The position numbers and the translations under genes were made by a program. This document shows, in pieces, positions 11,030-14,190 of a DNA stretch of 64,000 nucleotides (within the stretch, counting starts at the first letter, position 1; each line of letters opens with the position of its first letter). Location of the stretch: assembly GCF_000179915.2 (NCBI RefSeq), contig NC_014963.1, positions 3,782,001-3,846,000 of the forward strand. The letters run 5' to 3'. The notes under the pieces are model-generated. The model searched no databases, was not told the origin of the DNA, and saw only the letters and a list, made by a program, of their open reading frames with translations. The DNA comes from Terriglobus saanensis SP1PR4 (GTDB lineage Bacteria; Acidobacteriota; Terriglobia; Terriglobales; Acidobacteriaceae).

Positions 11030-11439
11030 CCGCTATTTCGCTTAGAGTTCCGTTGGTTCCACCCTCGGTCAACCATTACAAACTACCGATCGAGCGCAGG
11101 AGCCGTTTAGGTCGCACGTGCCTCGGATTTCGCGTAACACCGGAGGGCAAGGCGTTCAAGGCTGCAATTGCGATTGCAGCAAAGGGACAGTCGATTGCGC
11201 CAGCAACGCAACGTGAACGCGACAAGATCCGCTACTACCTCGCCGTAACTATCGTTCTTGGCCCTGGACAGCGAGGCGACGGCGACAACTTCTGGAAGTG
11301 CATCGCGGATGGCTTGGTCGAAGCAGGCGTAATCCATTCCGACGCACGTGTAAAGGTCTGGCACCTCGAACTTGACGACGAAGACCGCACCAATCCGAGG
11401 ACGGAGATCTTCGCCTCGGTCATGAATGGAGAGAAGTGA
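11026..11439 (+). CDS. rusA: RusA-family Holliday junction resolvase
   Basis: A 137-aa protein with the RusA signature: PLVPPSVNHYK at the N-terminus and the acidic core RGDGDNFWKCIADGLVEAG with VIHSDARV. The aspartates bind the catalytic metal. RusA-type enzymes cut Holliday junctions and branched DNA during phage replication and packaging. It is coupled by overlap to genes on both sides, ending where the sliding-clamp gene begins. Confidence 0.9.
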   Translation: MTAISLRVPLVPPSVNHYKLPIERRSRLGRTCLGFRVTPEGKAFKAAIAIAAKGQSIAPATQRERDKIRYYLAVTIVLGPGQRGDGDNFWKCIADGLVEAGVIHSDARVKVWHLELDDEDRTNPRTEIFASVMNGEK

Positions 11440-12551
11440 TGGCAGACGTAAAGATGAAGACCAAGATGCTGCGGTCGGCAGTGGAGATTGTTCGCCCCGC
11501 GATTGCAAAGGCGTCCGTGGGCATCCCAGCCCTTCGGACAATCAAGATGGAGAAGATGCCCGAGGGCATGGGCATTTCGGCAAACAACCTCAACGTCGGA
11601 ATTCGCGTGAACCTGCTGACAGAGTTTCCTGACGATAGGCCGGTCGCAATCTCTGCGGAGCGCCTCCTTAATTATGTGAAGTTGCTCGATACCGAAGAGG
11701 TGTCGATCACCTTCAAGAGCGACAAAGCCCGCTTCAGCTCCGGAGCCTGCCGCGCCCAGGTGCCGACGGTCGAAGGTGCTCCTGAGTTTCCGATGCCCAC
11801 AGAGGGGCAGACGATCGCTATGGCTCAGGACGTCCTTTTGCGCGCCCTTCGACACGTTGCATTCGCGATGACAGAATCGGAAAACCGGTTCGTTGTCGAC
11901 GGTGCCCTTCTCACCGCGAAAGATGGCTACCTGGAAGTCGCCGCCCTCGATGGGTATCGGATCTCGGTCTATCGAATCGAGATGAAGGGCCTTCCCGAGT
12001 GCGAGATCCTTCTCCCCGGTGATTTATGTGACGCGCTGCTGGCCACGCTACGCGATTGTGATGCGACCGTCTCGATACAACTTGGCGAAAGCGCAATCGG
12101 AGTTCGGATGGAAGGCATCGAAGCGCAGATCATCGAGATCCGTGCAGGCCGCCTCGCGAAGAAGTTCGCGCCCTACAACAAGATCCTCCCGGAAAACCGT
12201 CGCCTAGCGATAGTGCTTCCTGCACCGCGTCTACTGCTCGCCGCACAGCGCTGTATCGCGATGGCGGACATTAAAACGCAGTGCATCCGCATGTACTTCG
12301 AGCGTGAGTCGATCACCTTGAACGGCGCGACGCCTGACTCGGGCGACGCCGACGAGGCCGTTTCGATTGAAGGTGGACCTCAAACGAAGCTGGCCATGGC
12401 ATTCAAAGGTGAGTACCTGGTCGACGCTTTGAAGAAGCTGCGCGGCGATGTGACGGTCGACATCGGCGAGAAAGACCAGGTCATGATGCTCTACGCAGAA
12501 CCGTTCGAGGGAGAAACCTTGCGCTACGGCGTGATGCCCATGCGCGTGTGA
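11439..12551 (+). CDS. dnaN: phage-type DNA polymerase III beta subunit (sliding clamp)
   Basis: A 370-aa protein of normal beta-clamp length. The N-terminal domain has IPALRTIKMEK and ISANNLNVGIRVNL, the middle has DGYRISVYRIEM, and the C-terminus has FKGEYLVDALKKL, ending in YGVMPMRV. These match bacterial DnaN across all three domains. Its place between rusA and small phage genes shows it is the element's own clamp, not the host copy, which normally lies beside dnaA. It probably recruits host polymerase to the element. Confidence 0.85.
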   Translation: MADVKMKTKMLRSAVEIVRPAIAKASVGIPALRTIKMEKMPEGMGISANNLNVGIRVNLLTEFPDDRPVAISAERLLNYVKLLDTEEVSITFKSDKARFSSGACRAQVPTVEGAPEFPMPTEGQTIAMAQDVLLRALRHVAFAMTESENRFVVDGALLTAKDGYLEVAALDGYRISVYRIEMKGLPECEILLPGDLCDALLATLRDCDATVSIQLGESAIGVRMEGIEAQIIEIRAGRLAKKFAPYNKILPENRRLAIVLPAPRLLLAAQRCIAMADIKTQCIRMYFERESITLNGATPDSGDADEAVSIEGGPQTKLAMAFKGEYLVDALKKLRGDVTVDIGEKDQVMMLYAEPFEGETLRYGVMPMRV

Positions 12552-12675
12552 GGTAGCCGCCTCCCAACGGATCAAATTTATTCGATCGAAACAGTTGTCG
12601 AACTGGTGGCGAAGGCCACCCGAAGGACGGAGCACGTTTTGAAGAAAGCAACTACGAAACAAGAGAGGAAAAGTG

Positions 12676-12915
12676 ATGTACTCAACGCTCAACGGCCTGG
12701 AACAGTTGTCAGTGTTCTTGCTGATAGTAATGGTGACCATGGTGCTCGTCTGGCTGGTGATTCTCGTGTGCCTTTCCAGAGAGCACGAACGGGAAGAGCA
12801 CACGCGGGCGAGATCGGTCAGAAGCAAACTCCCTCCACACTTCGGAAACAAGCCGGGCCCGCCCGCGAACTTGGTGATGCCATCCCCGGCTCCGTACAAA
12901 GCCGCAAAGAGATAG
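12676..12915 (+). CDS. small membrane protein with basic cytoplasmic tail
   Basis: A 79-aa protein with GAGAGGA upstream of the ATG. Residues 11-34 form one strongly hydrophobic helix (LSVFLLIVMVTMVLVWLVIL). A charged HEREEHTRARS linker and a Pro-rich basic tail follow. It overlaps the 5' part of a longer frame that ends in the sigma region-4-like gene; only one is likely translated here, and hydrophobicity plus the ribosome-binding site favour this one. Function unknown. Confidence 0.55.
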   Translation: MYSTLNGLEQLSVFLLIVMVTMVLVWLVILVCLSREHEREEHTRARSVRSKLPPHFGNKPGPPANLVMPSPAPYKAAKR

Positions 12916-12956
12916 CAGGCCCAAGAGTGAAGGGAGGCTACGCGCAGGACCGGTGC

Positions 12957-13145
12957 ATGACCCTTGAAGAGATCGCCAAAATTGAAGGCGTTACACGCGA
13001 ACGGATACGTCAGATCGAAGCGATTGCATTGAAGAAGCTGCGGGAGAGCGGCATCACGCTCGGCATCCTGAAAGAGCTCGACGCCACTCCTTCGGCACGC
13101 CAGTATGCACGCCCAACTGGAGCTGCACGTATAGGAGGCCAATGA
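12957..13145 (+). CDS. lone sigma-70 region 4-like HTH protein
   Basis: A 62-aa protein. MTLEEIAKIEGVTRERIRQI followed by EAIALKKLRE is a close match to the region 4.2 helix-turn-helix that reads the -35 element in primary sigma factors, with nothing else attached. AGGA lies seven bases before this ATG; a longer in-frame extension upstream is possible. It may redirect host RNA polymerase or act as a small transcription factor for the element. Confidence 0.65.
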   Translation: MTLEEIAKIEGVTRERIRQIEAIALKKLRESGITLGILKELDATPSARQYARPTGAARIGGQ

Positions 13146-13146
13146 G

Positions 13147-14190
13147 ATGGCCGAATTTACAGTCGGTTCGCTCTTTGCTGGTATCGGCGGCATTGACCTC
13201 GGTTTCGAGCGGGCGGGGTTCCGCACCGTTTGGCAGGTCGAGATCAACCCTTACTGCCAGCGTGTGTTGGCCAAGAACTTTCCCCATGCGGAGCGGTATG
13301 CAGACATCAGAGAGTGCGGAGCCCACAACCTCAAGCCAGTCGACGTCATTGTCGGAGGTTTCCCCTGCCAGGACATCAGCAATGCAGGAAAGCGGGCAGG
13401 AATCACCGGAGAACGGTCTGGACTTTGGGGAGAGTACGCACGCATCGTTCGCGAGCTACGACCCCGCTTCGTCTTCGTGGAGAACGTCGCAGCTTTGCTT
13501 GGACGGGGAATGGGAACAGTACTCGGAGACCTGGCCGAAATCGGGTATGACGCGGAGTGGGAAATCGTATCTGCTGCCGACGTCGGCGCTCCGCATCTCC
13601 GCGAAAGGATCTGGATTGTGGCCTACCCCAACTGTGGGCGGCGGTGGCCAAACGCTGCCAGATGGAACTACTCCTCAAGGGAAAACACCGGAAGGGCGGA
13701 AGCAGACGGTGTGCTTGGAGCGATACGTAAAGCAAGTGGAGCGCGGCATGTGGCCGACTCCTCGTGCGAACGATGCGGAGAAGCGCGGCAACTTCGATGT
13801 GATGAACCCCCGGAACGGTCTACCTGCGGCAGTGAAGATGCTGCCAACACCGAAATCCTCGATGGCGGACAAGGGAGGCAGGGGAGATCTACTTGCCATA
13901 GTGAGAACGGGCAAAGTAAGTGGCCGAAAGCATTGGCCGACGCCCAGCACGATGGATCACATCGAGCGCAAGGGAATGAGGCCGAGTCGGGCAGCGACAG
14001 GGCGGACGACAGGTTACCTGAGCGAATCAGTCAGTGGGCAGTTGAACCCAACGTGGGTCGAGTGGCTCATGGGATACCCGCTCGGGTGGACCGACTTAGA
14101 GGACTCGGTAATGCCGTAGTGCCGCAGATACCGGAAATGTTCGCACGACAGATCCGCACAGCACTGGAGGAGCAGGTGAACAATGCCTAG
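13147..14190 (+). CDS. C5 DNA cytosine methyltransferase
   Basis: A 347-aa Dcm-type enzyme that transfers methyl from S-adenosylmethionine to cytosine C5. Motif I is SLFAGIGGIDLGFERAG, motif IV GGFPCQDIS with the catalytic Cys, motif VI VFVENV, motif VIII GAPHLRERIWIVAYP, and motifs IX/X RVDRLRGLGNAVVPQ. AGGAGG lies eight bases before the ATG. The target-recognition region (about 165-300) is low-complexity and hydrophilic. A second frame stays open over nearly the whole gene (see findings). No cognate restriction enzyme is adjacent, so it is probably an orphan anti-restriction enzyme. Confidence 0.9.
   Translation: MAEFTVGSLFAGIGGIDLGFERAGFRTVWQVEINPYCQRVLAKNFPHAERYADIRECGAHNLKPVDVIVGGFPCQDISNAGKRAGITGERSGLWGEYARIVRELRPRFVFVENVAALLGRGMGTVLGDLAEIGYDAEWEIVSAADVGAPHLRERIWIVAYPNCGRRWPNAARWNYSSRENTGRAEADGVLGAIRKASGARHVADSSCERCGEARQLRCDEPPERSTCGSEDAANTEILDGGQGRQGRSTCHSENGQSKWPKALADAQHDGSHRAQGNEAESGSDRADDRLPERISQWAVEPNVGRVAHGIPARVDRLRGLGNAVVPQIPEMFARQIRTALEEQVNNA

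Follow-up and report, generated by a model that had tools for sequence, protein, structure and literature searches.

The methyltransferase locus of Terriglobus saanensis SP1PR4 very probably encodes a putative C5-cytosine methyltransferase that is made as two polypeptides in overlapping reading frames, like M.EcoHK31I, with the target-recognition domain (TRD) and motif IX on the chain (beta) read at +1 relative to the Dcm frame (frame 0, alpha). The computations show that protein-level selection shifts to the +1 frame when motif VIII is reached and returns to frame 0 beyond motif IX. The first-pass annotation had suggested that both frames may be under selection, and this is borne out by stop-codon depletion, by a switch in codon-position constraint and by an enrichment of internal Shine-Dalgarno (SD) plus start sites; what it had not seen is that selection is divided along the gene, the Dcm frame being dominant up to motif VIII and after motif IX and the +1 frame between them. 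The coordinates are collected in Table 1.

Table 1. Features of the methyltransferase locus, numbered from the first letter of the window, that is, the whole stretch of 64,000 nucleotides that was analysed.
Feature	Position	Strand	Basis
alpha, C5-cytosine methyltransferase large subunit (motifs I-VIII and X), 347 aa	13147..14190	+	Pfam, PHROG_363, M.HhaI similarity and fold
beta open reading frame, +1 relative to alpha, ATG 13142 to TAG 14117-14119, 325 aa	13142..14119	+	PHROG_1008
beta from likely internal start ATG 13298 (alternative ATG 13142, overlapping the alpha start)	13298..14119	+	
Shine-Dalgarno AGGAGG; spacing 8 nt to alpha ATG 13147, 3 nt to ATG 13142	13133..13138	+	read from sequence
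GGAG upstream of beta ATG 13298	13290-13293	+	read from sequence
alpha catalytic domain, motifs I-VIII	13147..13632	+	Pfam, TIGR00675, AlphaFold
alpha region of predicted disorder, in which the beta recognition region is read through without stops	13675..14109	+	pLDDT, stop counts
beta WPTP unit 1, overlapping the end of alpha motif VIII	13619..13630	+	
beta WPTP unit 2	13751..13762	+	
beta LPTP unit	13841..13852	+	
beta WPTP unit 3	13934..13945	+	
beta motif IX-like LNPTWVEWLMGYPLGWT	14042..14092	+	P251, E255, M258 and G259 invariant in 75 aligned rows
alpha EPNVGRVAHGIPARVDRLRGLGNAVVP, which overlaps beta motif IX and includes motif X (from 14104) with the residues leading into it	14044..14124	+	conserved alignment columns

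The window is part of a 5.1 Mb bacterial chromosome, and the neighbours of the methyltransferase gene within it are of phage type: a RusA-like resolvase, a DNA polymerase processivity factor, a sigma-factor-like end and a primosomal-like protein. The processivity factor (11436-12551; phrog_947, E 1.9e-47) lies just upstream of the methyltransferase. The ORF at 12606-13145 has a sigma-factor-like match over residues 118-159 only and its real start may be near 12957, while an 80-residue membrane-like ORF at 12673-12915 may be a separate gene.

Alpha matches PHROG_363 (E 2.3e-84) and Pfam DNA_methylase (E 1.9e-49), the latter over residues 4-162 only; TIGR00675 is aligned over residues 8-162 only, and the same residues match M.HhaI (E 7.6e-23), entries of which are also the best structural matches to the AlphaFold model. 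This model is mostly confident to about residue 160 (the blocks at residues 71-90 score 70 and 66) and again in a C-terminal helix from about residue 321, while pLDDT falls below 50 at residues 177-220 and 222-321, some 144 residues. Motifs I-VIII and X are present on alpha, the last assigned by eye from its consensus. The earlier statement that the Dcm frame carries all catalytic motifs therefore holds for I-VIII and X, but the Pfam and TIGR00675 alignments stop at residue 162.

The +1 frame is open from 13142 to 14119, just as first described, with YDPASSSWRTSQ, SETWPKSGMTRSG, three WPTP units and one LPTP unit, and QLNPTWVEWLMGYPLGWTDL. Shuffling the synonymous codons of the window Dcm introduced a mean of 5.98 stops into this frame; none of 5000 shuffles left it open from codon 1, and 0.06% did so from codon 51. 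The same holds for the relatives. In 133 non-redundant genes, codon shuffles under a fixed Dcm protein predict 236 +1 stops between motifs VIII and IX, where none is observed, and 406 from Dcm codon 61 to motif VIII, where there are 24. Codons 1-60 exhibit no depletion (289 observed, 269 expected), from which it follows that the first 50 or so codons of the ORF beginning at 13142 are not general to the family; a +1 frame open from the start is found in the window and some relatives (L091, L092, L011, L012). The +2 control frame of the 133 genes contains 993 stops between VIII and IX against 995 expected, and a low-GC subset (32 genes, GC < 0.45) has no +1 stop in this region where 86.2 are expected.

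These counts derive from 169 sequences, which yielded 166 alpha/+1 pairs; a recognisable motif IX was found in 154, 141 were non-redundant and 133 entered the stop test. The window gene occurs twice among the 166 (W and L167), as do some contigs found by both scans, and no pair was obtained from L083, which starts at a contig edge inside beta, from L168, or from L166, the host's own ordinary Dcm. Using the +1 peptide as query biases the viral loci so obtained in favour of open +1 frames; a second set was found with the whole Dcm protein. In that set 60 of 60 genes lack a +1 stop from motif VIII to 20 codons before motif X, where 86.0 are expected; the set was cut at motif X rather than by beta, and one further gene with no recognisable motif X was dropped. 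The first-pass annotation had held that a +1 frame broken in close homologues with an intact Dcm would exclude dual coding, and these 60 stop-free genes display the opposite. Ordinary Dcms served as a further control (29 of 30 loci counted, on both strands, one having been dropped for masked bases): they contain 123 +1 stops before the end of motif VIII (120.1 expected) and 128 after it (127.0 expected), and although two of the 29 lack a stop from codon 61 to VIII and three beyond VIII, none does in both.

Codon-position differences reveal which frame carries the conserved protein. The comparison covered 59 independent pairs with a mean identity of 0.74 and no fewer than 100 alignable positions between VIII and IX. 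Differences at Dcm codon positions 1, 2 and 3 were.175,.134 and.467 in codons 1-60;.198,.120 and.365 from codon 61 to motif VIII;.365,.235 and.215 between VIII and IX; and.158,.049 and.394 after IX. Between VIII and IX the first position is thus more variable than the third, as it is in 51 of the 59 pairs individually. Over the same four regions, differences at fourfold-degenerate sites of the Dcm frame run.532,.361,.072 and.431, and those of the +1 frame.135,.177,.427 and.104. Taken together these switches indicate that the conserved protein between VIII and IX is the +1 product. The Dcm frame is weakly constrained there, yet it stays open: given the +1 protein, 528 frame-0 stops are expected in 134 genes and none is observed, which indicates that alpha is read through to motif X. 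In 67 pairs, fourfold constraint on the Dcm frame first appears some 110-100 codons ahead of the point where motif VIII ends, and it peaks 30-20 codons ahead of that point.

This onset agrees in position with a cluster of internal start sites. Between Dcm codons 30 and 75, 49 of 132 genes (the test covered 132 of the 141 non-redundant loci) possess a +1 SD plus start site against 14.8 expected, and 45 of the 49 lie at codons 40-60; the +2 control gave 30 against 32.1. A strong internal site is therefore a property of a minority of the genes, and overlapping alpha and beta starts occur in other relatives (L002, L005, L035). In the window, beta probably starts at ATG 13298, since stop depletion begins past codon 60, the SD plus start sites cluster at codons 40-60, and the GGAG precedes this codon; ATG 13142 is a possible alternative.

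Beta is a member of PHROG_1008 (E 1.5e-36, residues 60-319), and it has no match in Pfam or NCBIfam, nor any sequence relative in the PDB at E <= 10. Four beta chains carrying motif X likewise have no Pfam match. The AlphaFold model of beta is poor (pLDDT 57, pTM 0.26), and a Foldseek search of the PDB with it gave no match. When compared by hhalign with canonical motif IX from 18 ordinary Dcms, the LMGYP of beta falls in register, though not significantly so (5.3% probability, P = 0.0074); the longer profile gave 1.3% probability and P = 0.039. The first-pass annotation had paired the +1 motifs position by position with Dcm motifs VI-X. For the N-terminal half this pairing is partly an echo of Dcm conservation, as is seen from gp40 of Streptococcus phage P0091, a chance +1 ORF in an ordinary Dcm that matches positions 3-107 of the +1 profile at E = 1.6e-14 (12-sequence file). 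The N-terminal motifs of beta were accordingly rejected as evidence that stands by itself.

Relatives are numerous. A tblastn search with the +1 product returned 90 phage records, a scan of viral contigs found a relative encoded in at least 597 of 600 candidate stretches, and a scan of bacterial and archaeal genomes found one in 352 of 374; the 80 loci kept from the latter span many bacterial phyla and include one archaeal MAG. Beta lies at +1 of alpha in all 80. In 74 of these alpha runs past IX and carries motif X, and in two it runs past IX without a recognised X; in three it ends just after VIII and X is on beta, and in one it ends after VIII and no X was seen. In the window's own phylum, 22 of 396 genomes match at E <= 0.001, eight of them at E < 1e-20, the source genome included; in all eight, motif X is on alpha and beta is open at +1, and motif IX is recognised by pattern in six. 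Many of the weaker matches cover only the N-terminal half of the profile, and several fall within longer Dcm ORFs, in some cases with stops. Two loci are exceptions to the common layouts: in L062 the frames switch inside the gene, and in L190 alpha stops after VIII and no X was seen in beta. In the prophage of E. coli PCP07014 (L314) alpha contains an internal stop and is labelled a pseudogene, and an interruption of beta lies close by.

Motif X is carried by beta in Phanphagia, Peaches, L199, L204 and L220. In the mycobacteriophage proteins Babsiella gp54 and prophiT49-1 gp22, the catalytic domain, LPTP units, a motif IX-like MMGWP/MQGWP stretch and motif X all lie in one frame, and the LPTP-IX region of both is matched by the beta profile (E 5.2e-20 and 1.8e-17; 12-sequence file). 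The position of this stretch ahead of X fits the assignment of motif IX to beta. Babsiella and Phanphagia share flanks that are 95.4% and 96.1% identical at the DNA level, around a middle of about 1030 versus 210 nt; the Phanphagia LPTP-IX-X part is read at +1, split from the catalytic domain. An exchanged middle between conserved ends is also found in Pseudomonas L201 and two E. coli prophages. The TRD of C5 methyltransferases sits between motifs VIII and X, and it is this region that is exchanged as a cassette, which would place the recognition part on beta. A short +1 ORF beside Babsiella gp54 (gp55; L308:2339-2647) contains further LPTP units, so that LPTP occurs in both frames of one gene.

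Annotation of the overlap is uneven. In the record of Paenibacillus phage Diva the nested ORF is labelled "g49 internal gene"; a Paenibacillus phage paper reports, in the passages available, that overlaps were penalised, and those passages do not discuss the nested gene (PMC6070908). For E. coli PT62, RefSeq lists alpha alone, whereas in Mycobacterium phage XFactor (L307:1943-2671) beta is annotated (gp67) and the surrounding alpha gene is not; gene finders can thus drop either half. No title or abstract opening in the literature searched describes this phage-wide overlap, most subscription papers lying outside its coverage, and the available part of PMC5009743 contained no match to the terms sought. 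The 139-residue +1 ORF of P0091 (L311:1937-2356), which lies in a single-chain Dcm and is annotated as "DNA methyltransferase," is probably a true annotation artefact.

That ORF speaks for regarding the whole +1 frame as an artefact, open only through base composition and Dcm conservation. It shows that chance +1 ORFs in ordinary Dcms (here at a locus GC of 0.39) do get annotated and can match the N-terminal half of the beta profile; a few ordinary Dcms are also open at +1 in one of the two regions counted, though in no case in both. The codon shuffles, the +2 frame, the ordinary-Dcm controls, the low-GC genes and the codon-position switch all contradict this explanation, which is almost certainly wrong. 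For the family it is refuted by the absence of any of the 236 stops expected between VIII and IX and by a Dcm-frame fourfold difference of 7% there versus 53% in codons 1-60. The first-pass annotation's other proposal, a long-standing annotation artefact, is rejected for the family on the strength of stop depletion, the codon-position switch and the enriched SD plus start sites.

Two further explanations accept the +1 protein and differ in what they make of it. Programmed ribosomal frameshifting from alpha into +1 near motif VIII would yield a fusion of the N-terminal domain, TRD and IX, with no separate beta. It would suit Phanphagia, where alpha ends about 35 residues past motif VIII and both IX and X are in +1, and fused homologues do exist; furthermore, the genes flagged by PRFect whose frameshifts are reported in the literature include methyltransferases, the kind of methyltransferase not being specified in the part of the paper available (PMC10885494). 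It is nevertheless very unlikely, given that the +1 frame is kept open for about 100 codons upstream of VIII (24 versus 406 stops), which a late shift does not need, that start sites are enriched at codons 40-60, that the shifted product of window-type genes would lack motif X, and that translation in frame 0 still has to cross VIII-IX (0 versus 528 stops). The remaining possibility, that beta is a separate protein with another role (a regulator or an anti-restriction protein, for example) nested by chance, draws on its want of a recognised fold and on PHROG_1008 being a sequence family of its own. Against it, single-chain enzymes have the LPTP-IX region placed between their catalytic domain and motif X, and alpha accompanies beta in 80 of 80 genome loci; we regard it as very unlikely. 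More plausibly, the +1 product supplies the enzyme with the TRD and motif IX that alpha lacks, a point absent from the first-pass annotation.

In the two-polypeptide enzyme that we favour, alpha would provide the domain for SAM binding and catalysis (I-VIII) as well as the helix of motif X, and beta the variable target-recognition region of W/LPTP-headed units together with motif IX. Beta would be translated by its own initiation, bind alpha and set the sequence specificity, each chain crossing the other's functional region as a stop-free passenger; the assembled, active enzyme may protect prophage or phage DNA by methylation. It is likely, moreover, that the locus represents a very large family of phage and bacterial C5 methyltransferases in which the recognition half exists only in +1, as a cassette that is exchanged and moves between fused, X-on-alpha and X-on-beta forms, while the apparent "TRD" of the Dcm protein is carried along in a disordered state. 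In that case, any specificity predicted from such a Dcm protein has been read in the wrong frame, and the placing of the TRD in M.EcoHK31I may have to be reconsidered. Phage "Dcm" annotations of the split type would be without half of the enzyme, and specificity would have to be read from +1. What had been a suspected artefact becomes a strongly supported long same-strand overlap of prokaryotic genes, typically of 200-300 codons, seen in 166 viral-scan pairs (141 non-redundant loci, among the matches listed) and at all 80 genome loci in many bacterial phyla. The fused, X-on-alpha and X-on-beta forms constitute a natural set for studying how reading frames change hands.

M.EcoHK31I, which recognises YGGCCR, has its beta in an alternate frame inside the alpha gene, a feature which the nested beta of the window shares. 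When L201 was used as query, alpha/beta relatives were found in 4 of 5426 E. coli genomes, none of which was identified as EcoHK31I. The available part of PMC3404938 describes M.EcoHK31I (reportedly first characterised by Lee, Kam and Shaw in 1995) as a two-polypeptide C5 methyltransferase whose large subunit, like the window's alpha, bears motifs I-VIII and X, with motif IX on the small one, and counts the variable region and motif IX together as the small domain of C5 methyltransferases. The predicted TRD of M.EcoHK31I is, however, placed there on the large subunit; in the window family the corresponding stretch of alpha is weakly constrained and predicted to be disordered, while the variable region on beta is constrained and exchanged, so that this feature of M.EcoHK31I is not found. 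M.AquI, according to the same source, carries motifs I-VIII on one chain and IX on the other, and differs in that its small subunit bears X and its variable region is split across the two chains, whereas X is on alpha in the window; the relatives with X on beta resemble M.AquI in this respect.

Among single-chain enzymes, the catalytic domain of alpha is like that of M.HhaI in sequence and in model, but M.HhaI and M.HaeIII possess the TRD and motif IX in the same chain, and these are absent from the alpha of the window. PHROG_1008, of which the +1 product is a member, bears only the name "DNA methyltransferase" in its library entry, which is silent on the overlap. Babsiella gp54 and prophiT49-1 gp22 share with the window's locus a catalytic domain, LPTP units, a motif IX-like stretch and motif X, but have them all in one chain and one frame.
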